DNA of 64,000 nucleotides, taken from assembly GCA_019448385.1 (NCBI GenBank), contig JAGTXO010000053.1:124001-188000 (forward strand), written 5' to 3'. Of this stretch, positions 2,452-53,694 are shown piece after piece; position 1 is the first letter of the stretch; every line of letters begins with the position of its first letter. Under the pieces are notes generated by a model that was not told the origin of the DNA, made no database searches, and saw only the letters and a program-made list of their open reading frames with translations. The stretch is from Diacronema lutheri (Eukaryota > Haptophyta > Pavlovophyceae > Pavlovales > Pavlovaceae). A program made the translations under genes and the position numbers.

Positions 2452-2485
<34 letters not shown>

Positions 2486-2585: not shown

Positions 2586-5500
2586 AAAGTACGGTGCGAC
2601 GCTCTCGCGCATTGCAGCCGAGGCCGACGAGGCCACGCACGTGGCGTACGCAGTGTTCACCGACCGCACTCCCCGAGTGCGGGCGGTGCGCGCACGGCGG
2701 GTGCCCGCCGCGCCGCGCCGACGCGGTGCCCGGCTACTCAACCAACGAGCGGGAGGTGGCCAACGTGATCCGGCAGCTCCAGCTGCCGTCGGGCGCGAAG
2801 CGCGGCCACGCGCCCACGGAGGCGCACGCGCGCGAGCGGCAGCGCAACCAGCAGCACATTGAGCGCGTCCTGCAGGGCGACGCGCCGCCGACGCGCTCGA
2901 GGCTCGCGCTCGGCGGCTCCATCGACCACGAGGCGGAGCAGATCTTCACCGCCTTTCAAGGCGTGCTCCGTGGGCCGCGCCGCGTCGCACGCAACAAGGC
3001 GAAGAGCCCCTCCTGACGGTGCATCCTGACGGTGCGCCTGCGCCGGCCGCGCGCGCGCGCGCGCCCCCCCGTGCGAGCGGGCGCGCGCGCAGAGGAGGGG
3101 GGGGGGGGCTGGGCAGGGTGGCGCGTCGCTCGCGCGGCCGCCGCACTCTGCCGCCGCGCCCGGCGCGACATGCGCGCGCGGACGCCCCATCGCCGTGGCG
3201 CGCACCGGGGTGGCGGGGCAGGGCGCCTTCGCACGTGCGGCCGTCCGGCCGTCCGGCCGCGCGTGCGCCGTGGCGGCTGCGGGCGCGGCGCGCGCGGCGC
3301 GCGCGAGGCTGACGGCAGCGCGCGCCGCGCGCGCCGCGCTCGCGCCGCATACGCGCGCGCGCGGGCGCAGCCGGACAGGGTGGAGATGGGCGTTGCGCTG
3401 GTCGCGCGGCTCGGCATGCTCTAGACGCACATCACCGGCGAGCCGCCGCCGCACGCGCTCTGCCCCCGGCGGAGCGCGATGCAGCAGCGCTACACCGCGC
3501 TGACCGTGCTCGACTTGTACCTGCTGCTCGACAAGGAGGACAAGGGCTTCGTCGACGACAAGGCGCGCCAGCTGCCGACGGCGGACGGCGGGCCGCACCC
3601 GTGCGCGCGCGCATCGACGAGCGACCCGCGCATCAAGGATGCGATCTTGGGCCGCATCTTCGACCTGGACGTGCCCGCGCTTCGCTGGTCGGGCGCGGAG
3701 CGGCCTGCCGACACCGTCACCAAGGAGCAGCGGCGCGGGTGGTCCAGCACCGCCGTGCCGCCCGCGATCGCGTCCGCCGGGCCGCAGCCGGTCGAGCTCG
3801 TGCTCATCAACGGCGGCGACATCAAAGTGGTCAAGCCGGTGTTCGAGCCGCGGCGGCTCGGCGAGGCGTCGTATCTCACGCGGTGGCGCGATCCGAACGG
3901 CCCGGTCGACGTCGCGACCCCCGCGCAGCTGGCCGACGCGCGCACGCGCCACGGCCTCTCGCTCGCCGCGATGGACCCGGGCACGGCCGGCGTCGTCTCG
4001 TACGCGGAGGGCGGCTGCGGGCAGAAGCCCGTCTCGGTCACGCTCGGGCAGCGCGAGCGCGCCGCGCGCGCGCGGCACGCGCCCGAGCGCGAGAAGGGCC
4101 GTCGCGCAGCGCACCGGCCGCTCGATGCCGCGGCGGCAGCCGCTTGCGCGCCGTGTGCGCCGGCGACGGCGGCCGCGCTCGAGGCGGCGCTCGGCGCGGA
4201 GCACCGCGGGCACACCGTGCTCGAGGCCAACGAGCAGGTCAGCTTCACGCGCGCGCACACGCGGGTGCGCACGCAGACGCGGCACGTGCACAACTCGCCC
4301 GCGCGGCTGAGCGCGCGCGGGCGGCGCGGCGGCCTCAACCGGCGCGCGTGCGCGCTTGCGGCGGCGCGGCTCGTGCGCGTGCATGCGACCGAGCGGGGGC
4401 TCCGGCCCGACCAGCTGCTCGCCGTGTGCGGCGACTAGCTGCTCCGGTCACGCGGCGGCGGCGGCCGCGTGCGCGGCAAGCCGCCCGCGCTCGGCGAGGG
4501 CCTGCTCCGCGCGCTGCGCCGGCTCGGCGTCGCGGCGACGCTCGTGCCCGAGCCGCTGAGCTCCACGTGCTGCTCGGAGCTGCGCGAGGTGAAGCGGGGC
4601 GCGCCCGCTCCGAGCGCGGCGCCTGCCGCGGACGCCGCCGGCGCGCCGGCGGCGGCGGCGGCGGCTGGCCCGGCCGCGGCTGGCGGGCCGCGGCCGGTGC
4701 AGCGCTGCGCCGGCACGCTGCAGCCGTACGCGCGCAAGGCGGCGGGCGGCCGCGGCGCGTGGCGGGCGGCGCGGTGCGAACGTGCGGCACGCTCTACCAC
4801 CGCGACTGGACGGCAGCGCGCAACATCTACCACGACGCGCTCGACATGGTCGCCGACCACCTCGGCATGCGTGAGCGCATCACGTCCGAGCGCGGCCGCT
4901 TCGAGCGCGTCAAGCAAGGCTGGGCGCGCGCGCTCCGCACGCACAAGGAACACAAGGAGGACGAATTGGGCGCCGACGAGGTCGGCACGGCAGGCGACGG
5001 CGGCAGCGGCGGCGACGGGCACGGCGCACGCGGCGGGCCCGGCGGGCGCGGCGGGCGCGGCGGGCGCAGCGGGCGCGGCGGTCGCGGCCGCGGCGCGCGC
5101 ACGGCCGGCGGCGCAGCAGCCGCCGCTGCCGCCACCGCCGGCACAGCCGCGCCCAGCGCCGGCGCTGGTGCTGGCGGCTCACGGCGCGATGGCCGTGGCG
5201 CGCGCCGCCATGGCGCCAGCCGCGGCGCTCCGGGCGGCGGCGCGAGCGGCTCGAGCTCGCCGACGCGCGGGGCCACGCCGACGGCCAAGCGCCTCCGTTG
5301 GGCCAGCGCCGCAGCCGCGAGTGGCGCAGCGCCCGGTCGGCCGGCTGCAGCCACACGGCGGGGCGGCTCGGCCAGCCCGAGCACGCGTGCCGCGCCGTCG
5401 GGCCCGAAGCGGGCCCGGCCGAGCCGCGGCCGCGCGCATGACGCCGCCGCCGCCGCGCGCACCCGCGCGGACACGCCCACCGACGAGGCGGCGCAGCTCG

Positions 5501-5601
5501 GCCGCAGTGCGGCAGCCGCGCGTCCGATGCCCGCGCAGCGCGCGGCAAGCAGCGCGACGGCGGTGGGCGGGCCGCCGCGCAGCCACAGCACGCACAGCTG
5601 A
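2551..5601 (+). pseudogene. Fanzor (TnpB-family) nuclease, copy 1, broken
   Basis: The N-terminal Fanzor-like segment starts near 2,551 (GAFHALEKYGATLSRI) and matches copy 2 near 27,900. After an intron (3,032-3,370) the frame carries DLYLLLDKEDKGF, then the RuvC-I motif AAMDPGTAGVVSY at about 3,967. The RuvC-II region LLAVCGD is followed directly by a TAG at 4,436-4,438 where the other copies have Trp. The zinc ribbon (STCCSEL, RCAGTL) and the RuvC-III motif YHRDWTAARNIY at about 4,795-4,830 follow, with a frame change near 4,785. The tail from 4,990 to the stop is Gly/Ala/Arg-rich low complexity. In the TnpB/Fanzor family the protein is an RNA-guided DNA endonuclease; this copy cannot make a full one. 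The domain call is firm because DPG, the zinc cysteines and RD are all visible. Confidence 0.7.
3032..3370 (+). other. Spliceosomal intron in Fanzor copy 1
   Basis: The donor context CCTGACG/GTGCGC and acceptor GGGCGCAG/CCGGA are the same as in copies 2 and 5. The donor context is partly duplicated (also at 3,019). The interior is (GC)n and G-rich and shows no coding similarity to copy 4, which reads through this position without an intron. Inferred from comparison, not from transcripts. Confidence 0.55.
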
Positions 5602-5965
5602 GCACGACGCTTTACAGGACCCGGTAGGCCTGCGTCATCATCGAGCGGCCTCTCGATGCAAGAGCGGACTCGTTGCCTACCATCCGCTCGTCGCCGTCGG
5701 GAGCAAGCGCAAGATGCGTCGCGCAGCTCAAGGAGGCTGCGGCAGCGCACGCGCGTGGCGCGGCGAAGGTTGCAAAACCTCGGTGAAGTCGCAAGGCCGT
5801 GCGCTGGTGTGCGGGCGGCGCTCGGAGGCGCTCGCGGTGCGGTGCGCCGGGGCTGTGTGCGCGCACGGCGAGAGAGGCGTCGCTGCTCGAGAACCTTGCC
5901 CTATATAGGGCGCGGTCCGGGGTGGTCCGGCCAGTATGGGGCTGAGAGTACGACCCGGGTCGTAC
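5602..5965. other. Spacer, nothing recognised
   Basis: 364 bases between the end of Fanzor copy 1 and dispersed repeat R1. I see no gene, no hairpin comparable to those after the other Fanzors, and no terminal repeat. A short TATA-like string (ctatatagggc) lies near 5,901. Confidence 0.4.
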
Positions 5966-13001: not shown

Positions 13002-13048
<47 letters not shown>

Positions 13049-16540: not shown

Positions 16541-16701
16541 ATAATGCGTAATCGAGACGAGTTTCACCCACGGGTTCGTCACCGTTGAAACGGCCAACGG
16601 GAAAGCGAGCGGTGGTGGCGCGCACTTTTCGGTGGATGACCAGCCGCAACTGAGCGAGAGCCTCTCTTCCTCAGCCCGCTGGGCGGCCGCGCTCCTCCGA
16701 G

Positions 16702-17977: not shown

Positions 17978-20552
17978 GGCGTCGTCAAAGGCGTGCTCGC
18001 CGTCGCCGCGGCGGACTCAGCGACATCGAGCCCGCCGCTGCCGACGTCGCGAACGCCGACGCCGCCGCCGGCCCGCTCGCCGGCCAGCTCGCGCTGCCAG
18101 AGGGCTTCTAGCCGACGCGCGCCCCCGACCGTCCGCGATCGCGCCGCCGCTCGCGCCGTCGGACCGCGGCGCGCACGTCGCGCGCGGCCACCACCGTCTG
18201 ACTCGCGCTCGGCCGAGCGCGCGGGCACGCCTGCGCCGCGGGCACGCCTGCGCCTGCGACTACGCCGCCGCCGTGCGCGCGCTCCCGCTCGGACCGCGAC
18301 TGCCTGCACGCCACGCTTGCCCGCCTCGCAGCACCTGGCCCTGCACCCGCCGCCGGTCCTCGCCTCGCACCCGGCCGGCCACGTGGACCCGGCCGTGCAT
18401 CGGCCGCGCCGGCCCTCGCCACTGCCACACGCCGAGACGGCCAGACGCCTCGGAGTAGCAGACCCGGCCGCCGCCGAGCCTCGGTCCCGAGCCCTCGACC
18501 CTCGAGATCGTGTCGGCGTGTCGAGTCCGTGTCGCGACGCGCCCTCGCCCTCCGCACCACGGCCCCCGCCCCCCGCCCCCCGACGGGGTCTCCAGCCCTA
18601 GGGCAGCGAGCGCCCCCTTATCGGAACGGCGGCCGCACTGATGAGACTGCGCATCGGGGGAAGCTGCGGCAGCGTGGATGTTGATGGCGCGAGGCACGCG
18701 GCAAATTGCCCTTCCGGGACGAGCTCGTGCCGCGCGCGCTGGCAATGGTCGACATCGTCGCCGCGCGCGCCGTCGCACCATACGGTCTCGACGACGCGGC
18801 GCTCTGCTCGACGTCGGCGGCGAAGCGCACCCGCCCGTCCACGCCGACGTGCACGGCGTAGCCGGCGGCGGCTTGCGCAGGCGGTGGCGATCGCCGGTGG
18901 CTGCGCGGCGCGCGTGCGACTCCGAGGAGTACAGTCACGCCCCGTCGCGCATCCACAAGGCCATCGCCACGTGCACCGTCCCTTGCCCCTGTCGGGCGCG
19001 GCGAGCGCACGTACGAGCCCGTGCTCGGCGAGGCCGGCGGCCTCAACTGCGTCCGCTTCGCGTCGCGCGTGCCGCACGAGTTGTGCACGGGCCCACCTCC
19101 CTGCTTTTGCAGTCATACTTCCAGTGCCGCTCCACGACGCACGCGCACGCGCGCCACTTCCGCGAGCCGCACTGGCGGACATTTCGCGGCCCCGTTGGCG
19201 ACACCGAACTCTCGCTCGTTCACGCCGTCACGCCGGCGCGGGCGCGTGGTGCGCGCGCGTTGGGTGAGTGTCTGTCTCGAGCAGCGTGCCCAGTCGCAGT
19301 GCGGGTGCGTGGCCGTCTGCCTCAAAACGCCACATGGAGGGGAATGCGCGGGGCGGGCTCGCCGAGGAGTTGCCGCCGCTCGCTGCCACCCGGCGCGGGC
19401 TCTGTGCAGCCGTCTTCGGGTGCCGCGCTCTTCGCGCCATGCACGAACGTTCCGCCGCGCTCGCAGGGCGCGAGCGCACACACAGAGCGCGCGGCGACCC
19501 CGGCGGGGGCAGTGCGTCCTAGTGGCACCCGCGGGCGCGCGCCTGGCCTGGGCGCAGCTATGCGCGCTGCCGTCCGCGCGCTTCGCCGCGCGCGTGCGCC
19601 CTGCGTGCACGCGCACAGCGCGCGGCGGCTCGGCGCAGTGCAGAGCAGAGCGTCCTGCAACGGTTGCGAGGGCGCGCACGCGCGGCGCGGCGCGCCCTTG
19701 TGCGGTCGCCTGCGCGCGGCGCGTGGTCCGGACGCAGCTGGCTGGCGTGTTGCCGTTCGTGCAGCACAGTGCGCGCGTGTGCCGCACGTGCACATCTGCA
19801 GTGCAATGCGGCTCTGCGCGCGTCGCGTGGGCGGAGCGCGGCCGGATGTGCTTCAGCTCGCGCAGCATGCCGCCCGCCGCGCGCTGTGCGGCGCAGCGAG
19901 TCGGCCATGCCCCTGGTCTTCATCTCGGGGGGGGAAAGGAGGGGGTGAGAGGTGTGTGTGTGTGGGGGGGGGGGGGGGGGGGGGGGGGGGGGAGGGGGGA
20001 AGGAGGGGGAACAGGAGGTGAGCGCCGTCCGACTCCTTGACCAGGATGCGTCCCGTTCTTCCTCGACACTCTCCGTCCAAGCCCGCCGCCGAGCCCGCCC
20101 CCAGCGCGCCGCTCAGCCTGCCGCCATACCCGCCGCCAACGCCGCCGCGCACGCATCCTCCGAGCCCACCGCCCAGAGGAAGCAGAACAGCGCAGGCCGG
20201 CGCGCGGCCGCGCGTGCGCGCTCACGTTGCGGCCGCGCGGCGAGCTTGCGCCCCGTCGCAGCCCCTCCAGGCAGCCACGATTCCCACCCCCGGGAGGACG
20301 TCGGCCGCGCTCGGAGGCCACGCTCGGGCACGCAAAGGGAGGCGGCGCGGCCAAACGAGAAGGCTCGACGCGCTGGCGGATCCTGGTTGCGCCCGCGAGC
20401 GTGAACAAGGTGAGTGGGAGAGCGGGGAATTCTTCAGGGTATCAGGTAATTCTCGAAAGTATCATCCGGGCCGAGTAAATGGGAGAGCGGGAAATTCTCC
20501 AGAGGATCATCTGGACACGCCATCCGGACACGGACGTGTCTACAGTTTGCAG
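17978..20552. other. No recognisable gene; low-complexity DNA
   Basis: Long frames exist here only because of high GC. Some stretches near 18,690-19,230 have protein-like patches (VPRALAMVDIVAARAVAPYG; RHFREPHWRTFRGPVGDTEL) in different frames, but none is sustained. A 29-base G run sits at 19,964-19,992. From about 20,400 the DNA becomes more AT-rich with partly duplicated strings (GGGAGAGCGG.AATTCT at 20,417 and 20,480). Confidence 0.4.
19964..19992 (+). repeat. Poly-G tract (29 bases)
   Basis: Uninterrupted G run inside a wider purine-rich stretch (about 19,926-20,015) with a GT-rich leader. Strong asymmetry; a candidate quadruplex-forming site. Confidence 0.85.
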
Positions 20553-20894
20553 ATGGAGGACTCCGTGGAGGACGCTTTGCGCGGCGGGCTGGGCAGCTCG
20601 GACAGTTTCTCGCTGGCCCTCCGCACCATTCTGCCGCCGGGTGTGCGCCACCCCCACGTGGTCCCATCCACTTGCCTCCTCGCCCTGCTGCATGGCGAGA
20701 ATCTCGGCCCGAGCGTGGATGAGGTGAGGATCAGGGCGTGCGACGTCGGAGTAGCTGACTCGTATAGTCTGCTACTTTATCCCAACATGGCGCGAGTTCG
20801 AATCTGGGTGAACGCATGTCTTTGGGATCAGTCCGGCGGGGCGGGACCGGTGCTTTCCCGGGAGATAGGAAAGCATGGCGTCTCACATTCTTAG
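20553..20894 (+). CDS. Small unrecognised protein or exon
   Basis: An ATG frame of 113 codons (MEDSVEDALRGGLGSSDSFS) directly preceded by a pyrimidine-rich, AG-ending string (GTTTGCAG), so it may begin an exon. Its second half is made by the tRNA-like repeat at 20,739-20,815 and is unlikely to be conserved protein. No family recognised. Confidence 0.25.
   Translation: MEDSVEDALRGGLGSSDSFSLALRTILPPGVRHPHVVPSTCLLALLHGENLGPSVDEVRIRACDVGVADSYSLLLYPNMARVRIWVNACLWDQSGGAGPVLSREIGKHGVSHS
20739..20815 (+). repeat. tRNA-like repeat with A and B boxes
   Basis: Contains TAGCTGACTCGTATAGTC, which fits the RNA polymerase III A-box, and 41 bases further GAGTTCGAATCT, close to the B-box consensus GGTTCGAATCC. 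The spacing suits a type 2 pol III promoter. The anticodon stem does not pair, so this is not a functional tRNA; a tRNA-derived SINE head is the best reading. The first 46 bases recur twice, inverted, in the palindrome at 21,058-21,141. Confidence 0.5.
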
Positions 20895-20994
20895 TGTGGG
20901 ACGCGTGGCCGCGCAGGTGACTGGTGCACACAGTACCTGGCGGTGACGAACGTGCCGAGTGCTAGGTAGCTCGGGCGTCTCGGGTGACATGCTA

Positions 20995-21055
20995 TCATGC
21001 TGTGCCCGAGCGGAGAGAGCCAACTCCGTCACAAACTTCCCAGATCGAACTCGGG
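20995..21055 (+). repeat. tRNA-like dispersed repeat, copy 2
   Basis: Second copy of the repeat at 7,596-7,710, with TGCCCGAGCGG matching a Leu/Ser-type A-box almost perfectly, followed by ATCGAACTCGGG. It runs directly into the palindrome. Confidence 0.5.
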
Positions 21056-21057
21056 TT

Positions 21058-21141
21058 ATGTTGGGATAAAGTAGCAGACTATACGAGTCAGCTACTCCGA
21101 CGTCGGAGTAGCTGACTCGTATAGTCTGCTACTTTATCCCA
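21058..21141. repeat. Perfect palindrome, arms about 40 bp
   Basis: GTTGGGATAAAGTAGCAGAC leads into CGACGTCG at the centre (about 21,100) and then the exact reverse complement ending TATCCCAAC. Each arm is the A-box half of the repeat at 20,739. The reading frame of polyprotein copy 2 remains open up to this palindrome, so the insertion probably displaced the true start of that gene. Confidence 0.85.
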
Positions 21142-21170
21142 ACAGGGCGTGCTCGCAGCGTGCGCTTAAC

Positions 21171-24100
21171 GTGGCGCTGCACAAACTGGGCGAAGCACGC
21201 GCGGATGCGGGCCGGCTTGGGCAGGTGCTCGTGGTCGTGCTACCGCTCTGCCTCTACGTGTCCGGCGGCCTCGCGCACTGGACGGCGGCGTGCCTGCTCC
21301 TCGCGCCGCCCGCGCAGGCCGGCGCGCCGCCCGGCGCCGCGCTCGCCCTGCACGCCGATTCGCTCAGCTTGGGCAACGGCCCGTCGGCGCACGCCACGGC
21401 GGCCAGCAAGCTCATCAAGGCGCTCGCGCAGCGCATCGGCATCGCAGCGCCAACCATCGATGCCTTGAAGGCGCCCGCGCAGAGTGGGACCGAGTGTTGC
21501 TTCGCCGCGGCAACACTCGCGGCCGAGGTCGCGGCGAGCGCAGCGACGACGGCGGGCCGCCGCGCGAATGTCCTTGTCGGGATCAAGAAGGCTTTGGACG
21601 CGCGCCTCACGCGCCTCACGACGGCCGCGTACGAGGAGACCAGCAAGCGCACGCTCCGCGCCGCCATCGGCGCTCTGCTCGACGACCCCGCCAGGCGCTT
21701 CGGCGCGTCGCGCGACGGGGCCGCGCGGCTCGCCGAGGCGTGCGGTGCCTGTGTCGGCGAATCCGCGCCCGACGGGCTGCTGCGGGCCGTCGACGCGGCG
21801 CTGCGCGCGCCCGACGACCGCATCGCGCGCACGGCCGCGCTCGACGCGCTCACGGGCGCTGCAGGCCGCGCGCTGTCGACGGCGGCCAGGCCGCGCGGCG
21901 CGGCGGCGCCAAGGCCGCCGTCGCGAGCGCCACCGCCCCGTGCGCCGCAGCGGCGCGCCGCCTCGGCGTGGGGGCACCGACCATTCAGCAGCCTCGGCGG
22001 GGGCGAGGGCGACGGGGACGATGGCGACGCCACCACCGCCGACGACGGGGAGGACGCGGAGGACGGGAACAACGACCTCGCCAACGACGGTGCGGGTCAC
22101 GACACCGACGACGACTCCGCCGACGGCGACGGAGGCGACGGCGGCGGCGGCGGCGGCGGCGACCAAGGCTCGCCTCCGGCAGCCCCCGAGGACTTCGCGC
22201 TGGCCAGCCCCGAGGCGGTGCTCGAGCTGCTCGCGGCCGCCGCGACTGTGCGCGAGCAGCTGGCGCTCGCCTTTGCGCCGTCCGGCGGCGCGCGCGGCGA
22301 CGCGCTGGACGCGAAGCGCGCGCCCTTTGAGGTGCTGCGCTCGCTGCTGGTGCGCGTCGCGCGGCCGTCGGACGTGCGCGCGCGACTGCGCCTCCGCCAG
22401 CTGCTGCTCGCGCTGCGAGACCCGCGCCGCGCTGCCGAGCGCTCGCGGCGGCGCACGGACGAGCTGCGCGACGCGCGCCGCGTCGCCGAGCGGCTCGTGG
22501 CCGAGCTGCACGTGGCCCTGCCCGACTTGCCGCTCTTCTCCGGCGTCTGCGCCGGCGAAGACGGCTCGGCCGCCGCGCCGTTCACGATGCTGCGCGTCGC
22601 GCCGCGGCCGGGGCAGCGCGGCGCGCCGGGCGTGCGCGGCGTCGCCCAGCTGCTCGGCGAAGTGCGGCTCGAGCGCGCGCCGCGTGCGCTGCTGGTCGCG
22701 ATCGACCGCCCGTCGGCCGACAAGGAGCCGGTCGAGCTCGGCGGGCCGGGCGGGGGCGGTGGCGGCGCGCTCGTGCTCCGCACCGTCGGCGGCTCCGACG
22801 CGACGTTCGCGCTGGCGAGCGTGCTCGTCCAGCGCCGCGGCCGCAAGCGCGATGCGTGCGCCGTGCTCGCGCCCGCGCCCGACGGCGGCTGGTGGCGCGT
22901 CGACGGCGGCGGCAAGCAGCGAGACAACGCCGGCAGCGCGGCGGCCGAGGCGCGCGAGCTCGCCGTGGTCGCGCTGTACGAGCGCGTCGAGCCGCACGCG
23001 CCGACGCGCCGAGTGGCCGACGCGGCCGACGAGGCGCGCCTGTGCGCCGTCGCGCGCGCGCTCGATGCGGGCGGCGAGCACGTTTGGCGGTGGGCGACGG
23101 ACACGGCGCCGCCGCTCCGCGACGCGCTCGCCGTGCTGCGCGGCGGGGCCGACGCGCCGTCGGCGTGCGCCGCGCTCGCGGCCGCCGAGCTCGCGCCGCT
23201 CTTCGCGCGCGCGCACGTCGACGGCGCGTGGGCGGCGCGCGACGGCGACGCTGCGCTTGCGGATGCGCGCAGCGCGGCCGCCGCCGACGGCGTCCGCAAA
23301 CGCACGCGCCGGTCGACGCCGTCACTCCCCTCCAGGCTCGTCGTCGCGCTGCGCGAGTGCACAGGCGGACGGGTCGTGGCGCTGCTCGTCGTGCCGCCGC
23401 CGCGCGCGGCGGGCGCCGTCGCGAAGCCGCTGCTCGTCGCGCCGCGCGTCGGCGGCGACGACGACTGGCGCATCGCGCGCGCGCACGTCAGCGAGCTGCG
23501 CCACGCGGAGCTGCTCAGCGCGGAGCCGACGGACGTCGCGATCGGCGGCGACGCGCGCGCGCAGCCGCACGTCCTTGCGCTCGAGCTCGCGCTGCTCGCG
23601 CGTGCGGTCGTGTGCCACGACCTCGGCGACTCGTGGGCGCGGTGCAAGAGCCCAGACGAGATGTGCCGCAGTGCGAATGCGCACATCGCCGGCCTGCCCG
23701 ACGCGCGCGACGGCGTCGAGCGCGCGGCCGTGGCCGTTGCGGCGCATCGCTGGCGGTGGGACGTGCCGCTCGCGGCGCGCTCCGCCGCCGCGTCAACGGC
23801 CGCGGCGCCAACCCCGCCGGCGGCGCCGGGCGGCGGTGGCTCGGCGCCGCTCGGCGCGCCGGTGGCGCACGTGGCGGCGAACGCGGCGGCGGGCGCGCTC
23901 GTCGTGGCGGCGGCGGCGGCCGTCACGGCACCGAGGGCGCCGTGCGCGCCACGCGCGGGCGCGGCGGCTGCGGCGGTGGTGGTGACGAGCACGGCGGCGA
24001 CGAACTCGGTGGCGGCGGGCGCGGCGCCAACCTCGCCGGCGGCGGCGGACGGCGGTGGCTCGGCGCCGCTCGAACGCCGCCGCGTTTACGCTGCGCTTGG

Positions 24101-25815
24101 ACAGGGCGACACCAACGCGCGCGTGTACGACGCCAAGAACCTCGAGCAGCTGGAAGCGGGCAGGGCGCGGCTTCAGGCGGGCGGCAAGCCCGCGCCCGCC
24201 GTGCTCGACACGCTCGACGCGCACGCGAATGGCACGATCGTCTCGCGGCAGCGCACGGAGGTCATGACCGGCGCGGACATGCACCGCCTCGCCGCCGCGG
24301 CGCAGGGCGACGCAAACGGCAACGCCGTGCTGGCCAAGCTGGGCAAGCCCGGCTTCGCGGGGACGACATGGCACATGACGTCGGGCGTGGAGAACCAGCC
24401 GCGCGCGGTACGAGCGGCCGCGCGCGCGCTCGCGCTCGACGGCTGGGGCGGCGTGTACAATGCGCACGAGGACTTCGCCGCCTTCGAGGGCTTGCCGCGG
24501 CTCGCCGCGCCCGAACCGCTCGCGGCCATCGCCGGCGGGTCGGCGGACGCGGTGTTCTGCTGGCCGTCCGGCCGGTCCGTCATCGGCGAGGTGAAGACGG
24601 TTCACTACAATGGCGACCGCGCCGCTGCCATCGACCACGCGCGGGCGCTGCGCGTCAAGCCCGAGTGGCGCTCGCAGCCCAGGATCTACGAGGCGGCGTG
24701 CGGCGCGGAGGACACGGTGCTGCTCGTGTGGGTCGTGCCCGACCGCCACAAGAACCCGCGGCTGGTCTGGGAGCCGATTCTCGTCGTGATCCACCTGCCC
24801 GCCGACCCCGACTGGCTCGCGCGCGCCGCGCCGGCGATCGTGAAGGCGTGGCGCGAGGTCGAGGACGGACGCGCGCTCGCGGAGGCGTGCGGCGTGCCGC
24901 AGCACCTCGCCTACACGCTAAGCCCACGCTTCCGAGGCACCGCGCCGCGCGGCGCCGCGCGCGTGCCGCCGCGCCTCGGCGTGAGCGACGCGCGCGAGGC
25001 GCGCGCGCTCGCGGCGCTCGTGTCGGCGCTCATGTTCGTGCCGGCCTGGCGGCGCGCGGTGCGCGCGGCGAGCCGCGCCCCCGGCAATGGCGACGCGGCC
25101 GTCGCGCGCGCGCTCGCGCGCCTGCACAACGCGCTTGAGCCCGATGACGAGAGCGCGCCCGAGTCGGCGCGCGTCGCGCCGCTCGCCGCCGCGCTCGAGC
25201 AGTCGGCAGGCTGGCCGGCGGGCACGGCGCGCGGCTTGTCGGCCGACGGCGCGCTGCGCGCGCTGCTCGACGTGCTGCGCGCGTGCGGCGCGAGCGACGA
25301 GCTCGAGCGCGCGCTGCGCGGCGGCGAGCCGCCGGCGCCGGGCGCGCCCTCGGCGCGCGGCGCGTCGGCCGCGTGGCCGCTTGTCGCGCTGCGCGCCGAC
25401 GACGCGCGCGGCGCGAGCGCCAGCGCCGCCGTGTCGCGCGCGCTCGGCGCGCACGGGGTGCGCAACCCGCCGCGGCTCGTCGTCGTGCACGTCGCGGACG
25501 CGACCGAGTCGCTGCTCGAGATGCCCGAGCGGCTCGCGCTGCGCGTCGCGCGCGGCGCCGAGCCGGCCGAGCCGACCGCGGACGCCGCCGGGGCCGACGC
25601 CAAGCCCGCTGCCGTGCTCAGGCTGGTCGCCGTCGTGCAGCGCGAAGCATGCGACGACAAGGAGCGGCTCGTCGCCTGCGCTGCCCTCGCGCCCGGCGAT
25701 CGCGACTGGATGCGCGTTGCCGCCGCGAGCAGGCGCGCGTGCACCGCGAGGGTCGCGCTCGAGGGCCGCGCGCCGCTGCTCGTGTACGCGGCCGAGCCGG
25801 ACGGCGCGCGCGCGC
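21171..25815 (+). CDS. Polyprotein, N-terminal part: YqaJ-like nuclease, USP-like folds
   Basis: About 1,550 codons in one frame. No ATG lies near the start and the frame stays open upstream, so the true N-terminus is not resolved. Residues about 100-600 resemble a ubiquitin-specific protease: a GTECCFAAATLAAEVAA helix, later WWRVDGGGKQRD and VVALYERVE, the typical final strand. An acidic low-complexity linker lies at 22,005-22,160. Residues about 1,000-1,200 (24,170-24,890) form a YqaJ/lambda-exonuclease-like PD-(D/E)XK domain: TWHMTSGVENQPRA, FCWPSGRSVIGEVKT with the E-x-K pair, then PRIYEAACGAEDTVLLVWVV. The usual PDG Asp is replaced by Ser. Residues 1,280-1,545 again look USP-like (LVSALMFVPAWRRAV; RLVVVHVADATESLLEMPER; LLVYAAEP) but lack the catalytic Cys and His. 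The frame loses sense after about 25,815 and continues in another frame. The YqaJ call is moderate, the USP calls weak. Confidence 0.5.
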
Positions 25816-26676
25816 GCCGTCCGGCGCGAGCGCGCGCGCGGCGGGCGCGCCGGCCGGCGCGCCCGGCGCGCCGAGCGCGGAGCCGGCCGGCGGGTCGCGC
25901 GGCCGCCGCGTCGCGCCGCACCTGCCGCCGCTGCCGCGCAAGCGCAAGCGCGATGCCGAGGCGCGCGCGCGGCTCGCGGCCGACACCGCGCGCGTCGACG
26001 CGGCGGCGCGACCCGGCGGTCCGCCGCTCACATACACGTGTGGCGAGCTGCCGCTGTCTACGAACGACGTGCGCGCGCTCCAGGGCAAGTACACCGAGGT
26101 GCCTTCGATCGTCGTCGAGGCGGAGCTCGGCGCGATCAACCGCGCCGCGGACAAAGCCGGCCGGCCGTGGAGGACGGCCGGCCCGGCCGTCGCGCGCGCG
26201 CTGCTCGCCGCCGTCGCCGACGGCGGTGAGCCCGATCGCGCGCACGCCGCGCTGGACGAGCACGGCCTCGGCGAGTGCACGCACCGCGCGCTGCTGTTCG
26301 CCAGCACCAATCGGCGGGTCGGCGCGGCCGTCGTGGTCGTCGTGCGCGGCGAGGGCGGCTGGGTGCAGCAGTACAACCCGACCGCCGCGCCGGAGCGCGC
26401 CAAGGAGGCCAAGCCGACCGCCGTGCGCGAGCGCGCCAAGGAGATCGAGCGCCAGGCGGAGCAGCTCGTCCGCGGGCTCGCGCGCGCGCTCCGCCTGCGC
26501 GCGCTTCCGCCCGTCGACGGCGCTGCGCCGGCGACCGCGCGGTCCGCGCAGTCAACGGCGCACGGGCGCGCGGTCGGCAGCCACTGGCGCGTCGAGCGCA
26601 AGGCGGATTCGCGCGCCGCCTGCGTCGTGGTCATGTCCTGGCTCGCGCTCGGCGCGCGTGACGCCGCCGCCGACGT

Positions 26677-26707
<31 letters not shown>

Positions 26708-28090
26708 GACGTCGGCGGCGGCGGCGGCGGCGGCGGCGGCGATGGCGGCGGCGACCAGAGCGCGCTCGCTGCCGCGGCGAGCGTGCTTGCGCTCAACGTG
26801 CACGCGACGGCGCAGCTCGCCGAGTACCGCGCGGGGGTGTTTGCGCTCATCCTGCGCGAGACGACAGCGCGGCTGCGAGCGCGCGACGCGGCGGTGACGC
26901 GGCAGCCGGCGTCCGCGCCGGCGTCGGCGGCGCTGACGCCGGAGAAGCCTCACGCGCGGTGCCTGAACGAGCTCAAGGCATCGGGCGGCAAGCATGCGGT
27001 CGTGGCGCCCGCCGCCATTGACGGCGTGCTCGCCCAGGTGCACGACCCGGCGCGCGGGTTCCGCGCCTTCTTCGGCCCGGGCGAGACGCGCGCGCTGCTC
27101 GACGCGCGCGACGCACGGCACGGGGCCGCGCAAAAGCGGCTGCGCGAGCGTCTCGACGATCCCGACTGCGACGCGCTGCTGCTCGTCCACTCGCCGAGCG
27201 ACGGCGCCGACCCGCAGCTCCTCCTCCTGCTCGCCGATGACGAGCACCGCGCAGGTCCGAGCGGCCGCTGGCGCCGGTTCCTCCTGCTCGAGCGCGAGCC
27301 GCGCGATGGCGCGGCGGGCGCGGCGGCGCCGAGCTGGGCGGGCAAGCTCGTCACGCGTGTGTTCGGCCTTGGCGCGACGCCTGAGCCGCTGCGCCGGTCG
27401 GAGCGCTCGCGTGCGTACGTGCCGCCCGCCGGCCGCGCGGGCGTGTGGGCGCTCGCGCTCGCGCTGTGCGTGCTGCGCGTGGAGCGCGGCGGCCTGCTCG
27501 GCAACGCCGGGCGCGTGTGGCCGCGCGAGCGCGACGCGCAGGCGGCCGGCTCGCTGCTCGAGGCGTGGCTGCGCGCGGAGGCCAAGCGCGAGGCCGCTGC
27601 CCTCAAGTCGCCGGTGAGCACCTCGCCGGCGTCCGGGCGCGGTGCGGCGGCGGCGCGGCCGCGCGCGGCCGGCGCGGTCGGCGGGGACGCGCTCGCGTGC
27701 GGCGCGTGCGCGGAGCCGGCCGCGACGCCGCGCCGCGCCGCGCGGACGGCCGCGCCGGCGGCCGGCGCGGCCAACGCGTCCGCCTGCGCGTGCTGCGCGA
27801 GCGCCGAGCCGCCGGCCGAGCCGCCGGACGCGACGGGCGAGCGCATCGCTTGCCTGCAGAAGCCGCGGGGCTGGCGCACGGAGTACCGGACCCTGGAGCT
27901 CAGCGACGGCGCCTTTCGCGGGCGGGAAAAGTACGGCGTCAAGCTGATGCACGTCGTGGACGAGGCGAACGCCAGCACGCGCATGACGTACAACGTGCTC
28001 AACGACCGCGCGCACACATCGCTGCCGAACGCCGGGCAGTGCTCGCCCGGCGACGAGCTACAGCGCCCAGACGACGAGCTCGAGGGCTAA
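25816..28090 (+). CDS. Polyprotein, C-terminal part: Ulp1-like segments
   Basis: Continues the previous frame after a -1 shift and ends with TAA at 28,088-28,090. It starts with a basic stretch PPLPRKRKRDAEARARLA, a plausible nuclear localisation signal. Next comes GELPLSTNDVRALQGKYTEV, ALLFASTNRRVGAAVVVVVR, and ACVVVMSWLALG (26,035-26,650), which has the order of strands expected of a Ulp1/C48 cysteine peptidase but Gly-Ala where HW should be. Gly-rich filler follows (26,676-26,755). A second similar unit runs 26,940-27,510 (DALLLVHSPSDGADPQLLLL; RAYVPPAGRAGVWALALALC). A Cys-rich patch (ACGACAEP, ACACCASAE) lies at 27,695-27,810. The last 60 residues belong to the Fanzor N-terminus (REKYGVKLMHVVDEANAST). 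After the TAA the same frame goes on into Fanzor, so polyprotein and Fanzor may once have been one chain. Confidence 0.45.
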
Positions 28091-28108
28091 CCCAAGGACG
28101 ATGACGAC

Positions 28109-30790
28109 GTGCGCAACCTGCTCCGCCAGATCGAGCTGCCGCCCGACGAGAAGCGCGGCCATCGGCTCGGCGAGGCCAACGCGGCGCAGCGGGCGCGCAA
28201 CCGGCGGCACATTGACCGGCTGTCACAGGGCGACGCGCCGGCGACGCGCTCGAACGTTTCGCTCGATGGCTGCGTCGCGACCGAGGCGGAGCAGATCTTC
28301 ACCGCGTACAAGATGCACCCGCGCCGCGTCGCGTACAAGCTGCTGCGCGCGCTGCTGCGCGCGGCGGTCGACGCGGACGAGGCCGCCAAGCCGCGCGGCA
28401 CGCGCACGTCGAATGAGCAGCGCGACGCGGACGTCGCGACGCTGCTCAAGCTGCTGTGGTCCGGCGACACGGCCGGCGCGGCGCCGCGGCTGCCGCCCGC
28501 GCTAGCGCAGCACGCCGACTGGCTCGTGCTCCCATGCGACTACAGCACGGATGACCCCAAGGTCAGGCGCACGACCAACTACTTCCTGACGGTGCGCGCG
28601 CGCGCGCGCGGCGCGCGCGGGGACGGAGGGGCTGCGCAAGGGCCGGCCGCGCGACGGTGGCCGCGTCGTCCGCGCGGCGCGCGCGCGTGCTGCGGTGCGC
28701 CCCGCTCGCGCGTGCTCCGCGGCGCGGCGCCGCGGCCAGGCATGGACGGGCGCGCGCCGTGCGGACGACGTGCCGCGCGCGCGCGCAGCAGGGCCACGGC
28801 GCGCGGAGCGCCCGACGACGCTGATGGCGTGCTCTCCGACCCCCCCCCCCCCCCCTCTCCTTCCCTCGCGTGCGCCGCGCAGCCGGATAAGGCGGCGATG
28901 GGCGCGTCGCTTCTCGCGCGCCTCGGCATGCTCTACACGCACGTCACCGGAGAGCCGCCGCCGTACGCGCTCTGCCCCCGGCGCGGGAGCATGCAGCAGC
29001 GCTTTGTCAACCTGTCCGCGTCAGGACCTGTACCTCTTGCTCGACGAGGACGACACGGCCTTCGTCCGCGAGTGGGTGTGCAAGCTTCCGACGGCCGACA
29101 ACGTGCCGCACGACGACCCGCGCACCTCGGTCAGCGACCCGCGCGTCAGGAACATGATCTTCGGCCACTTTATCAACCTCGACGAGCGGGCAATGCGGTG
29201 GACAGGCGAGGAGCTGCCCAGCAGCGACGTGACGGCGGAGCAGCGGCGCACGCATGTCGGCACCGCCGTCCCACCCGCGATCGCGTCCGCCGGACCGCAG
29301 CCGGCGGTGTACCTGCGCCACAACGGCCACGCCTGGCAGGCGGTCGTGCCGGTGTTCAAGCCGCCGCCGCCCGGCGGCAGCAAGTCCTTCCTCGACGATT
29401 GGCGCGATCCCAACGGCACGTTCGACGAGGCGACGCCCAAGCAGCTGGCCGAGGCGATTGAGGTGCACGGCCTCTAGACGGCCACGGTGGACCCCGGCTC
29501 CGACGGCTTCGTGACGCACGCGCCGAACGGCCGCGGGCTCGAGCCCACCTCGGTTCGCCTCACGCAGCGCGAGCGCGCCGCGCGCGCGGGGCACGCGCGC
29601 GAGCGCAGCAAGCTCGAGGGCGCGCGGCAACGGCCGCTCGTCGCGCCGGGCGCGCGCGCCGGCCCGTCGGGGCCGGGCGGCGCGCGGCCGCGCGCGCCGC
29701 GTGCTCCGCCGACGGCGGCCGCGCTCGAGGCGGAGCTCGGCGCGGCGCACGGCGGGCGCACCGCGCTCGGCGCGAACGACCAGGTCGCCTACGCGCGCGG
29801 GCACGAGCGCGTGCGACGGGCTACGCTGCCCGTGTACGGCACGCGCGCGCGGCTGCGCGCGCGCAAGCGGCGCGGCGGCGCGAACCGGCGCGAGTGCGCG
29901 CGCGCGGCGGCGCGGATCGTGCGCGTGCACGCGACCGACCGAGGGCTGCGGCCAGACCAGCTGCTCGTGCTCTTCGGCGATTGGCTCCACCGGTCGCGCG
30001 GCGGCGGCTGCGTGCGCGGCAAGGCGCCGGCGCTTGGCGTCGGCGTGCTCTACGCGCTGCGCCGGCGCGGCGTCGCGGCGACGCTCGTGCCCGAGCCGCT
30101 CAGCTCCAAGTGCTGTTCGGAGCTGCGCGAGGTGCGGAGCGCGCCCGCTGCGAGCGCGGCGCCGGCCGCCGACGCCGGCGCAGGCGCTCCCGCCGACGAT
30201 GGGTTGCCGACGACGGCGGACGAGGCGGCGGGGCAGCCGCGGCCGCTGCAGCGATGCGGAGGCACGCTGCACCCGTACGCGCGGAGCTCGCCGAGCGGGC
30301 GCGGCGCGTGGCGGGCGACGCGGTGCGACGCGTGCGGCATCATCTACCACCGCGACTGGACGGCGGCGCGCTGCATCTACCACGATGTGCTCGACATGAT
30401 CGCCGACCACCTCGGCAGGCATGAGCGCATCACGTCCGAGCCCGGCCGCTTCAAGCGCGTCAAGGCCTTTTGGCAGCGCGCCCTCGGGCGCGAGAGAGAG
30501 CACGACAAGGGCGAGCTGCAAGTGGACGAGGACGAGGCGGGCGGCGGCGGCGGTGCCGGCGGCGGCGGTGCCGGCGGCGGCGGTGCCGGCGGCGGCGCCA
30601 GCGGCAGCGGCAGCGGCGTCCTTGGCGGCGTCCTTGGCGGCGGACGCGGCGGCGGACGCGGCGGCGGACGCGGCGGCGGACGCTGCGGCGGAAACCGCGG
30701 CCGCGGCCGCGGCCGCGGCCGCGGCCGCGGCCGCAGCGGCAGTGCTGGTGCTGCCGGCGCCGCCGACTGTGCCGCAGCCGCTGCCGCACA

Positions 30791-30823
<33 letters not shown>

Positions 30824-31229
30824 TGCCGCTGCCGGCACCGGCACGACCGGTGGCAACGCGCGGGATTCGCTCGCGACCGCGCGCGGCGCGGCGCCGGAGG
30901 CGAAGCGCCCGCGTCGCGCCAACACGGCAGCCGCGAACGGCGCAACGCCCAGCCGGTCGGCAGCGACCTTGCGGCGGGGCGGCTCGGCCAGCCCGAGCAT
31001 GCGCGCCGCGCCCCCGGCCCCGAAGCGGGCACGGGCGAGCCGCAGTGGCGTACAGGACGCGACCGCTGCCGCGCGCGCGCCCGCGCGCGCGGCGACGCGC
31101 GCGGCGGCGCCGCGCGGCGGCGCAGCCGGTGGCGCGACCAAGCGCGCCTGCCACACCCTGCTGAGAACGACGCTTCATAGCGCTCTTCAGCCTCAGCACG
31201 AGCCGCTTGCGGCTTCGCACGACCCGTAA
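28109..31229 (+). pseudogene. Fanzor (TnpB-family) nuclease, copy 2
   Basis: An RNA-guided-nuclease family member. Its N-terminal helices begin before the TAA at 28,088 and continue NLLRQIELPPDEKRGHRLGE. An intron is predicted at 28,592-28,882. DKAAMGASLLARLGMLYTHV follows, then, after one extra T relative to copy 5 near 29,020, DLYLLLDEDDTAFVREW. A TAG at 29,475-29,477, present at the same place in copy 5, comes ten bases before the RuvC-I motif VDPGSDGFVTHA. RuvC-II is LLVLFGDWLHRSRGGG (about 29,965), the zinc ribbon SKCCSEL, RCGGTL and RCDACGI, and RuvC-III YHRDWTAARCIY (about 30,345). All catalytic Asp positions and zinc cysteines are present. The tail (30,530-31,160) is GGC-repeat-coded Gly/Ala/Arg. 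The stop TAA at 31,227-31,229 lies in a hairpin loop. Product likely nuclear; whether the TAG is read through is unknown. Confidence 0.75.
28592..28882 (+). other. Intron in Fanzor copy 2
   Basis: Donor CCTGACG/GTGCGC and acceptor GCCGCGCAG/CCGGAT, 291 bp, phase 0, with a C tract before the acceptor. Copy 4 reads straight through this point (YFLVQIRNRQHVAEGQALLC), showing the interval is not needed for the protein. Confidence 0.6.
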
Positions 31230-31236
31230 GGGTCGT
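31201..31236 (+). ncRNA. Two hairpins at the Fanzor 3' end: guide-RNA candidate
   Basis: AGCCGCTTGCGGCT folds as a short stem-loop, and 4 bases later ACGACCCGTAAGGGTCGT forms a perfect 7-bp stem with a GUAA tetraloop. The Fanzor stop codon TAA sits in that loop. In TnpB and Fanzor systems the guide (omega) RNA overlaps the 3' end of the nuclease gene, so this is the expected place for its scaffold. The function is inferred from position and structure only; a terminator-like or chance structure is possible. Confidence 0.35.
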
Positions 31237-31239
31237 ATA

Positions 31240-32034
31240 TACAAACTAGGCCCGCGCTTCGCCCCGGCCAGGCCGCCAGCGGTCGGGGGTCTAATCATCT
31301 CGAATGCCGCGATCGCTTGCGGCCTGGTCAGTATGCGCTGCACACGAGGCGCACGTCGTGTGTGTGGGTTGGACTGCCAGGCGTGTGTGCGCGCAGGACC
31401 GCATGACGTGTGTGTGCGCCGGCCTCTCCGTGACGAGCAAGATGCTTGGGCATCGAACCGCCCACGAGCACGCCAATGGCCACACGGAGGAGTGGACCTG
31501 CCCCGCCCGCTGGCGGCCTCCCCCCCCCCCCCCCCCCCCCCCCCCCCGCGCCTCGCCGTGCAGTCGGCATGCTAGACGTTGTCGACGACTCGGAGGGCGA
31601 AATCGACGATGCGCCAGTTCCGGATGGGGCGCTTCCCTGACGTGCGGCGGTCGCATCCCTGACGTGACGCCCGCCCTACCAGGCCATCTGGTCTCGTCGC
31701 AACCCCTTTCTTCCCGTCCGCCGACAATCGCATCCCTGATGTGACGCTCGCCCCTCCCCCCCCCCCCCCCCCGGGGCCCACCCACCACACCCCATCGCAC
31801 TTGTTCCCGGACGACCTGCGCCAGCCGGCCGGTCGCGAGGCGGCGTGCACGGCGAGCGGTGCAGGGGCGCGCCCCCGGGTGTACGGCCGAGCGGCAGATG
31901 CCGTTGCGACCGTGCGCCCCCCGATGCGTCCGTGCGACGTGCCAGCTTCATGCGCCGCGCGGCCCGTCCGCGACTGCGAGCGCGGCTCTGATTCTGATGA
32001 CGACGTGCCCGTTGACACTTGGCCGTTGTCCGGC
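31240..32034. repeat. Low-complexity spacer with C tracts and minisatellite units
   Basis: No gene seen. A 28-base C run lies at 31,520-31,547 and another C tract near 31,757-31,772. The unit (CGC)ATCCCTGA(C/T)GTGACG(C) occurs at about 31,634, 31,658 and 31,731, a degenerate minisatellite. The region lies between element copy 2 and the 3' end of the minus-strand methyltransferase gene. Confidence 0.6.
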
Positions 32035-36159: not shown

Positions 36160-36603
36160 AGCTACTGCGTCGACAAGTTGATCGGGAAGTCTAGCAGGCG
36201 GGCGGTGGGTTCGCGCCCGCCGTGGTCGACACGCTCGTCGCGCACGCGAAGGGCACGATCGTCCCGCAGCAGCGCAAGGAGGTCATGACCGGCGCGGACA
36301 TGCACCACCTCGCCGCCCCGACGCAGAGCGCAGGGTACGGTGGCGTCGTGCTGGCCAAGGCTGGCAAGCCCGGCTTCGCGGGGAAGTCGTGGCACATGAC
36401 GTCGGGCGTGGAGACCAGCCGCGCGCGGTACGAGCGGCCGCGCGCGCGCTCGCGCACGACGGCTGGGGCAACGTGTACAATGGGGGCGACGGCTTCGCCG
36501 CCCTCGAGGGCTTGCCGCGGCTCGCCGCGCCCGGATCGCTCGCAGCCATCGCCGGCGGGTCGGCGGACGCGGTGTTCTGCTGGCCGTCCGGCCGGTCCGT
36601 CAT
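36160..36603 (+). mobile_element. Fanzor-polyprotein element, copy 3 (nuclease fragment)
   Basis: About 410 bp matching copy 2 at 24,180-24,590 closely: GTIVPQQRKEVMTGADMHHL, GFAGKSWHMTSGVE and FCWPSGRSVIG, with frame changes. It stops exactly before the E-x-K of the nuclease motif and is followed by unrelated hairpin-rich DNA and the separate Fanzor gene. A truncated copy, not functional. Confidence 0.7.
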
Positions 36604-36643
36604 CGGCGTGCGCACGCACGCTCTCCACAGGGGCAGGGGCGCG

Positions 36644-36726
36644 CCTGGCCAGCACGGCCGGGGCCGCCCCTCTGGGGCCGCCGCATCCAGAAAGCGACGC
36701 GCCCCCGGCCAGCACGGCCGGGGGCC
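36644..36726 (-). ncRNA. Duplicated hairpin 3' of the stand-alone Fanzor: guide-RNA candidate
   Basis: A perfect 9-bp stem CCCCCGGCC-AGCAC-GGCCGGGGG lies at 36,702-36,724. A related weaker one (CCTGGCC-AGCAC-GGCCGGG) lies 60 bp away at 36,644-36,662. On the minus strand these follow the Fanzor stop codon by 76 and about 140 bases. Same logic as for 31,201-31,236: position and structure suggest a scaffold or an element end; not proven. Confidence 0.35.
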
Positions 36727-42545: not shown

Positions 42546-42588
42546 GAACTGACTATAATGTAAGAGCGGCACCGCGCAAGCTTGCGCG

Positions 42589-47692: not shown

Positions 47693-48901
47693 TCACCGGC
47701 AGTCGAAGACGCGGTTGGAGATGTCGAAGCGCGTCGCAAAGACCGCGTACCTGACGCGCACGTCCGACATCGGCGGGGTGTTGCCGTTTGTGCCTCCCCA
47801 CTTGATCGGCTCGCCATGGTGGTCGCGCAGGTCCAGCGCCTTGAGTTGCGCGCGCAGCTCCTTGCGCTCGTCGTCCGTGAGCGTGTTCCAGATGGCGCCC
47901 GTGCGCACCTGCACGCAGCGCGCGGCGCGCGAGCGCGCGGGCGCGTGAGCAACCTCGCCGCGCGGCGGCGCGCACGGCGGGGCGCGCGCGCTCGGGCGTA
48001 CGGTGACGGCAGCGGCAGCAGCGCGCCGCGCGCACATTGTGCGTTCGCAGCGGCGCCACGTTGTACCGCGGCGGCCGGCCGGTGAGCTGCGTGTACAGGC
48101 GCGCGAGCCGGCAGAGCAGCGCCTGCCCCTCGGCCACGTGCTGCCGGTTGCGGATCTGCACGAGGAAGTAGCGCGTCGTGTGCCTCTCGCTCGGCGTGGG
48201 CGCGCACTCGTAGTTGATGGCGTGGAGGACCATGTCAGGCAGGTGGCGGTCAGGCGCGGCGGGGCAGCCGGCGCGCGCGCCAGCCACGTTGCCGCGCAGC
48301 AGCAGCTCGCACAGCTCGCTCGCGCACGCGCGCGTTTCGCTGCATCTCGGGCAGCGCGACGGGCGCCTCGTCGCGCTCGACTGCCGCGCGGGCGACGTCG
48401 CGGAGCAGCCCGTTCACGACGCGCGATGGGTGCATCAGGCACGCGGCGGACACCTGCGCCGCCTCCTCCGCGAGGATCTGCGTGAGGCCCACCGCGCAGA
48501 CCGGCTGGACGCCCTCGGCCATCTCGCCGACGGCGCGCCGTCGCCGCCTTGGTCTGCGCGGCGGCTTGCTCGGCGGGCTTGCCTTGGGGCGCTGCACCGT
48601 ACCTGCTCTCGTCACTGTGCCAGCCGATGGCCGAGAAGATCGCACGGACGGCTCCCTTGTCCATCGTGGTCGACGTGTGCACGCTCGTCGACGGGCCGCC
48701 CGACGCCGCGCCGGCGGCCTGCGCGCTCGTCACCGCAGCCTCGTCGCGCACGACCTTGTTGATGACGCGGTACGCTTGTGTCGTGAGCCTGTGCACGGCC
48801 GTCACGAGGCGCCGCAGCTTTTTCCGCGCACCGGGCTGCGCCGTCACCGCCTGCGGCCCCGCGTTGAGCGTCGAGCGGTTGACCACGAAGCCCGGGAGCA
48901 C
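47693..48901 (-). pseudogene. Fanzor N-terminal half, copy 4
   Basis: Starts with GARKKLRRLVTAVHRLTTQA followed by YRVINKVVRDE, a basic helical N-terminus typical of Fanzor and TnpB proteins. It continues (with a frame change) into RYFLVQIRNRQHVAEGQALL and YTQLTGRPPRYNVAPL, which align with copy 2 across its intron site without any intron, and then DVRVRYAVFATRFDISNRVF. The RuvC and zinc parts are missing. Upstream frames are separated by stops. Not functional. Confidence 0.5.
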
Positions 48902-49065
48902 GCTGCCGCGCGTGCGCGCCGTCGCGCCATCGGCGGCGCGCGTGCTCGCTCGTACGTGCCCACCTCATCGTCGACGCTCGCGCCCGCCGCGCGCAAGCGC
49001 GTCTTCGATCACCCAGCAACCGTGCCGCCCAGCCGCTCGGCGACCGCGCGCAGCTGCCGCTCGCG

Positions 49066-53690: not shown

Positions 53691-53694
53691 CTTA

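Follow-up and report, generated by a model that had tools for sequence, protein, structure and literature searches.

Fanzor nucleases are already known to travel with Helitrons (PMC3627910, PMC10432273, PMC10711439; statements on the literature refer throughout to the accessible parts of the papers cited). The closest described relatives of the element treated here, a dispersed repeat of the alga Diacronema lutheri of which five copies lie in a window of 64,000 nucleotides (bases 124,001-188,000 of contig C53), are CRe-1/2/3, Helitron2 transposons with Fanzor1 from Chlamydomonas. Both are dispersed algal DNA transposons with a multi-exon Fanzor, a 3' end that almost every copy retains and a terminal hairpin, here in subfamily B (PMC3627910). 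In CRe-1/2/3, however, the Fanzor is a separate protein of its own, and the available part of that report describes no fused nuclease, chromodomain or polyprotein (PMC3627910); the D. lutheri element, for its part, has a different end, TATAC, and the pieces scanned showed no Rep.

Other systems share single traits with the D. lutheri element. Fanzor1 occurs together with a second nuclease gene in PGv-1, a Mariner element of Phaeocystis globosa virus, but that nuclease is of the GIY-YIG type and is encoded in a separate open reading frame (ORF) next to the Mariner transposase (PMC3627910). The eukaryotic transposon group ISL2EU encodes a YqaJ-domain protein, yet on an ORF of its own beside a DDE/THAP transposase; autonomous elements measure ~4.8 kb and no Fanzor is described in the accessible text (PMC4482050). 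Helentrons with deubiquitinase/OTU domains are large rolling-circle elements that combine helicase, RPA and ubiquitin-peptidase domains, whereas Fanzor, YqaJ or chromodomain are not described for them in the sections at hand (PMC9741609, PMC6431247), and a RepHel was not found in the pieces scanned here. Finally, the nuclease domain of subfamily A has the PD, E-V-K and Q motifs of the RecE/YqaJ/lambda-exonuclease family but lies inside a frame of ~4,500 codons that it shares with a chromodomain and half of a Fanzor. Transposons with a Fanzor and transposons with a YqaJ domain have thus each been described before, but the literature searched, which mostly excludes subscription papers, contained no case in which the two are fused with a chromodomain.

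On balance, we consider it probable that the five copies in the window are broken or diverged members of a family of large DNA transposons, which includes an abundant, intact-looking subfamily A and also subfamily B, to which copy 2 of the window belongs and in which a domain termed domain 1 and the Fanzor lie in one frame. This estimate applies to the explanation as a whole. The genome searched comprised 43,492,796 bases in 103 contigs; that of strain NIVA-4/92 has 73.25% GC and about 22.9% repeats, and in the main text of the genome paper, as far as accessible, no word begins with 'transpos' (PMC8379373).

Subfamily A is represented by at least 138 YqaJ loci, a count that leaves out two identical rows of the window type on C53 and rows of short N-terminal fragments. 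Stop-free frames of at least 4,000 amino acids are present in 105 of the 138 loci listed, and 81 have frames of 4,400-4,800 amino acids. Among 116 Pif1 helicase loci, 87 are followed on the same strand, within 40 kb downstream, by a YqaJ locus among those listed, and in 72 of these 87 the span between the two is fixed at 20.7-20.8 kb; these 72 copies together amount to ~1.5 Mb (72 x 20.8 kb). One copy was read or spanned over 27.4 kb. Because several contigs end ~3.5-3.7 kb upstream of the helicase, the full length can be guessed at ~31 kb, if these contig ends mark the 5' end of the element.

The gene order was read in pieces from the copy on contig C69. An N-terminal domain joined to Pif1 (87.8 and 53.6 bits; 2B domain 51.3 bits) is followed by a UCH-like stretch, a cysteine-protease-like stretch assigned by eye, domain 1 and a giant frame. 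This frame (C69 15,442-28,944, about 4,500 codons, stop-free) holds YqaJ, a chromodomain (PF00385, 44 bits, above cut-off) and the N-terminal half of the Fanzor; its YqaJ piece was read in the sister copy L051, where the coding signature is the same as in the C69 frame, and its oneness was deduced from the length of 4,500 amino acids and arithmetic. The coding signal, measured as the excess of GC at the third over the second codon position, remains in one frame from ~25.7 kb through the chromodomain and the N-terminal Fanzor half and switches before the RuvC half. GT and AG flank the stretch where it switches, and codon periodicity is lost there as well. We infer that the RuvC/zinc half is joined to the giant frame by splicing across an apparent intron.

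The domain fused ahead of Pif1 (L071:2-1216, corresponding to C69:3602-4816) is SSB-like by eye. Its relatives give no significant Pfam match; eight were found in the protein database, one 100% identical and seven stand-alone proteins of ~250 amino acids with 53-75% identity. The UCH/USP-like deubiquitinase stretch (L071:4000-4266) has a Cys box but stays below the Pfam cut-off (PF00443, 20.5 bits, cut-off 23.9), and a PDB sequence search with it gave nothing firm (the Cys box aligned with USP7 at E 0.56-0.86). Nine contigs (C1, C5, C6, C12, C26, C29, C80, C90 and C92) carry a minus-strand subfamily A YqaJ 6.71-6.79 kb from their first base and start about at the 3' terminus of the element, exactly so in C1, the sole one read (L069, C1:1-1300). 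Assemblers break at repeat borders, and the nine starts are most likely breaks at the border of a near-identical repeat; a telomere reading was dropped, the C1 end having no tandem repeat at its very end.

In subfamily B, all 13 B-type domain-1 loci listed, picked by eye from the domain-1 and Fanzor matches and including copy 2, have a Fanzor on the same strand 4.4-4.9 kb downstream, and in ten of them domain 1 and the N-terminal Fanzor half share one frame; the exceptions are copy 2, a copy on C1 and a copy on C74. The frame lengths reported (2,202-2,902 amino acids) agree, by arithmetic, with a single frame closed by the stop on the Fanzor side. The first-pass annotation of the window had described a repeated element that pairs a nuclease with a Fanzor and had suggested that the two may belong to one mobile system, perhaps to one chain. 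Genome-wide the link is real, and the idea of one system draws support from intact-looking copies elsewhere in the genome, but not from the window copies, which are themselves broken.

Element termini and transposon class

The copies end at one sharp 3' base and are for this reason regarded as mobile elements. In subfamily A, similarity stops at query positions 333-339 in 38 of 40 loci listed, the query and one other locus running on. For subfamily B and related loci the end was compared in 29 loci other than the reference: 23 stop at exactly the same base, three within 3 bases of it, two, both on C53, stop earlier and one gave no match. The flanks beyond this end differ from locus to locus. 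Folding of the terminus yielded a z-score of -3.7 for subfamily B, with two hairpins, while a further subfamily, D (-0.85), and subfamily A (-0.57) do not stand out. Directly before the terminal hairpins (window 31186-31198) lies a 13-base block, TTCAGCCTCAGCA, that is invariant in 15 aligned B and D termini, despite an identity of only about 68% between the Fanzor halves of the two subfamilies; the alignment took in 15 of 27 ends, L014 being a wrong motif match. The block is a candidate recognition site or guide-RNA core.

The Pif1-type helicase, as found in Helitrons, points towards a Helitron-like class, and the element is possibly of this kind. The corresponding alternative, to which we give not quite an even chance, holds that a rolling-circle transposon of this type picked up a Fanzor, as did Helitron2 of Chlamydomonas, and that the additional domains are ordinary cargo without joint function. 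It agrees with the 2B domain of Pif1, with the UCH-like stretch, Helitrons having been reported with RPA and deubiquitinase/OTU domains (PMC9741609, PMC6431247), and with the sharp 3' end and the terminal hairpins of subfamily B. Moreover, of 24 Fanzor loci listed with identities of 94% or more, 12 lack a domain 1 upstream among the matches listed, which is reminiscent of the 5' truncation of CRe-1/2/3 (PMC3627910). On the other hand, Pif1 is fused to a domain without assignment and not to Rep, the sole Helitron Rep match listed for the genome (PF14214) is on C63, a contig without any of the element copies listed, the terminus is TATAC instead of the CTRR of Helitron1, and the terminal fold is not significant in A and D. 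A DDE domain was not seen in the pieces scanned either; no genome-wide search aimed at DDE was made.

Nuclease domains and the common frame

By matches in three libraries, the subfamily A domain is a RecE/YqaJ-type PD-(D/E)XK nuclease. It matches PF09588 with 28.2 bits (cut-off 22) at one locus and with 17.2-21.8 bits, below cut-off, in another copy, PHROG_434 with 9e-14, and TIGR03033 with 27.3 bits, below the cut-off of 68 for that model. A PDB sequence search with the YqaJ alignment gave nothing firm, a phage-type exonuclease appearing at E 0.4.

The case of domain 1 is different. A YqaJ-like identity had been proposed for this domain in copy 2 and for the domain of copy 4; profile search bore it out for copy 4 (RecE-like PHROG_434, 3.5e-8), but domain 1 of copy 2 gave no match. 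We give slightly less than even odds to the view that this domain, which occupies 24.3-24.9 kb in copy 2, is no nuclease at all, in which case only subfamily A would have a real nuclease-Fanzor gene and the subfamily of copy 2 would pair its Fanzor with an unknown domain. No version of domain 1, whether from copy 2, subfamily A or copy 1, has a nuclease match in Pfam or PHROG, profile comparison with the YqaJ domain gave no match (with very shallow alignments), and in one subfamily A copy the Lys is replaced. Against this view stand the E-V-K and Q of copy 2, which align with those of copy 1, a version with 39% identity to that of subfamily A, and the A-like copy L065, which keeps the Lys. An Asp stretch precedes E-V-K in both copy 2 and copy 1, but the program left it unaligned.

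The Fanzor signature D...[ST][ST]...C4...RD (Bao & Jurka 2013, PMC3627910) is present in the alignment of subfamilies B and D, copy 5 and, where aligned, subfamily A. From one subfamily to another the E, RD and Cys residues fall into register; the first Asp of subfamily A falls just outside the aligned piece and is seen in the translation. With the Cas12f1-like_TNB model (PF07282, cut-off 26.3) the zinc/RuvC half scores 28.4 bits in subfamily A and 21.9 bits, below cut-off, in copy 2. The RuvC and zinc residues noticed at first pass in copy 2 are confirmed by the signature, which aligns among subfamilies, the TNB match being weak. A PDB sequence search with the subfamily A half retrieved Cas12f1 at E 0.27 and nothing firm; no Fanzor was found.

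We lean towards the view that in subfamily A a single gene encodes nuclease, chromodomain and Fanzor, as the frames suggest. Two neighbouring genes in one transposon, with polyprotein and Fanzor as separate proteins that share a frame by chance, stops being rare in so GC-rich a genome, appear less likely to us. Published transposon Fanzors are indeed proteins of their own (PMC3627910), and chance frames in this genome are long: among 200 Markov sequences generated for each stretch, the longest stop-free frame of a 9 kb stretch averaged 840 amino acids and reached 1,822. The frames observed (2,519 amino acids and open to the end of the stretch, 1,147 and 1,940) were in each case longer than any of the 200 controls made for them. 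The frame is kept across in ten of the 13 B loci listed, and YqaJ lies in the 4,400-4,800 amino acid frames at 81 of the 138 A loci listed, the N-terminal Fanzor half having been read within such a frame in C69 only. Across the junction the codon periodicity continues in the same frame, although it dips near 2,100-2,400 of L068, and no in-frame methionine occurs from the chromodomain to the N-terminal helix of the Fanzor, the latter assigned by eye.

Substitutions between the subfamilies show no third-position excess, and selection on the protein is therefore not demonstrated. The test is weakened because third positions have 93-96% GC in most domains; ratios of non-synonymous to synonymous substitutions (Nei-Gojobori scheme) were set aside as uninformative at this composition. 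The gene set of the element resembles that of large algal viruses. A virus-derived repeat, with helicase, YqaJ, peptidases and Fanzor acquired from a large DNA virus and later multiplied within the genome, is very improbable even though Fanzors occur in large algal viruses (PMC3627910), since the YqaJ, Fanzor and pre-helicase parts had no relatives in viral contigs (in searches that reach close relatives or short conserved patterns), the pieces scanned contained no virus-specific domain, and a transposon is what the chromodomain and the dispersed copies with their single sharp 3' end would suggest.

Several results weigh against a mobile family with a nuclease-Fanzor gene as preferred here. 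Besides the unmatched domain 1 with its replaced Lys, the long chance frames, the absent third-position excess and the viral contigs without relatives, no Rep or other transposase was seen in the pieces scanned, outside which the first ~3.5 kb of subfamily A lie, and for 29 of the 116 Pif1 loci the matches listed include no YqaJ in the 40 kb that follow downstream. A genome search with the Pfam YqaJ model gave a single locus among the matches listed, and neither the YqaJ region nor domain 1 had relatives in the protein database, where proteins of 0.55-1.75 times the query length were compared. A single-sequence AlphaFold model of the copy 4 nuclease (predicted local distance difference test, pLDDT, 38) was not used. 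The reason given below for joining the nucleases is, moreover, pure conjecture.

Element copies and other features of the window

The coordinates of the five copies are compiled in Table 1. The homology of copy 2 to copy 1 starts at 18,161 and that to subfamily A at 19,190. The Ulp1-like character of its N-terminal stretch is our assumption from the familiar H/D/C pattern. That a long frame with a nuclease-like domain (24.07-24.89 kb) precedes a Fanzor on the same strand, as initially described, holds true. The accompanying statement that both lie in the same frame apart from one TAA does not: the coding signal is in frame 0 at ~21.05-25.7 kb, in frame 2 at ~25.8-28.5 kb and, after a dip, again in frame 0 at ~28.95-30.5 kb, so that domain 1 and the N-terminal Fanzor half of this copy are in different frames, and there are two stops. 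In a comparison of 24 of the 30 Fanzor loci, the one at 28,088 occurs in copy 2 alone (21 loci have a sense codon, one of them, L015, not being homologous there, and two a gap), and the one at 29,475, which immediately precedes the RuvC half, in three loci, all on C53, with a sense codon in the other 21. As sister copies mostly carry sense codons at these positions, the stops are regarded as local lesions.

Parts of the element had also been reported for copies 1, 3 and 5, and these are present as partial copies. Copy 1 shares 50% amino acid identity with copy 2 in the polyprotein and 52-75% in pieces of the Fanzor. For copy 4, in which the order of copy 2 had been recognized, the succession of a YqaJ domain and Fanzor pieces (47,702-48,531) is there, but similarity stops at 47,696, short of the RuvC Asp and the zinc residues. 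With E-V-E in place of E-x-K, its nuclease domain has lost the catalytic Lys.

Table 1. Positions of element copies and their parts within the window.
Feature	Position	Strand	Remarks
Copy 1, divergent subfamily	1..5901	+	continues upstream of the window; internal stop in Fanzor; 3' limit provisional
Copy 2, subfamily B element	18161..31242	+	3' terminus sharp at 31,242; 5' limit uncertain
Copy 2, N-terminal cysteine-protease-like (presumably Ulp1-like) stretch	21171..21800	+	H/D/C pattern by eye, no Pfam match
Copy 2, domain 1, PD-(D/E)XK-like by motif only	24300..24890	+	E-V-K and Q align with diverged copy upstream of window; no profile match
Copy 2, switch from frame 0 to frame 2	25700..25850	+	from codon-position composition; one frame kept across in 10 of 13 loci
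Copy 2, Fanzor N-terminal half, frame 2	27850..28560	+	assigned by eye and position; stop at 28,088, copy 2 only
Copy 2, probable intron(s) between Fanzor halves	28560..28950	+	codon periodicity lost, length differs among copies
Copy 2, Fanzor RuvC/zinc half, frame 0	28950..30536	+	stop at 29,475 common to three C53 loci
Copy 2, 3' tail without coding signal, candidate guide-RNA site	30537..31242	+	
Copy 2, two terminal hairpins and terminal ATATAC	31199..31242	+	same end base in 23 of the 29 loci compared, end within 3 bp in a further 3
Copy 3, domain 1 fragment only, in two frames	36195..36661	+	
Copy 4, decayed subfamily A relative	47696..53691	-	84-91% DNA identity
Copy 4, YqaJ/RecE-type domain	51900..52505	-	PD kept; E-V-E replaces E-V-K; stop just after
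Copy 4, deletion point	48948..48949	-	L068 1972-2353, nearly the whole chromodomain, without counterpart
Copy 4, pieces of Fanzor N-terminal half	48033..48531	-	
Copy 4, first part of second Fanzor half	47702..47962	-	stops before RuvC Asp
Copy 5, Fanzor RuvC/zinc half	61777..62835	-	95% amino acid identity to copy 2

Two other dispersed repeats, each with more than ten loci, lie among these copies. One (16550-18016, 84-93% identity) lies just before copy 2, the other (12239-14349, 82-95% identity) within a repeat mosaic between copies 1 and 2. Two ORFs on the plus strand have matches slightly or clearly below cut-off, namely to a methyltransferase (42559-43848, weak; PF13578, 20.5 bits, cut-off 26.3) and to a nucleotide-sugar transferase (58005-59435, near cut-off; PF03407, 21.2 bits versus 22). 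Rfam and tRNA scans of the window gave no matches.

A proposed mode of spread

For subfamily A, with YqaJ/RecE nuclease, chromodomain and N-terminal Fanzor half in one frame and the RuvC/zinc half presumably spliced on, a mode of spread can be drawn up. What the sequences show is the order of the genes, their frames, the number of copies, the constant spacing and the sharp 3' end; the following steps are conjectural. Guided by an RNA that would originate in the element's 3' tail, the Fanzor would cut an empty target or sister locus, as has been discussed for TnpB and Fanzor (PMC10432273). The attached nuclease would then trim the ends of the break, and repair would thereby insert a copy of the element, while the chromodomain may hold the complex on chromatin. 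The peptidases might free the pieces or shield them from degradation, and the helicase could serve replicative, perhaps rolling-circle, movement. As a joint mechanism this is tentative, and we would sooner expect it to need revision than to hold in full. The same doubt attaches to its most far-reaching form: here a Fanzor, an end-resecting nuclease of the RecE/YqaJ type and a chromodomain would be fused into a natural RNA-guided nuclease of a single chain and would drive the spread, by 'cut, resect and copy', of a ~31 kb transposon making up a few per cent of the genome.

The role of Fanzor in transposition remains an open question in the field. If cutter, end-processing nuclease and chromatin reader were in fact united in one chain, the anatomy of the element itself would point to break repair as the copying step. 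Its many near-identical copies in a culturable alga would furthermore offer a testable system, and the fusion would provide a natural precedent for engineered Cas-exonuclease fusions.

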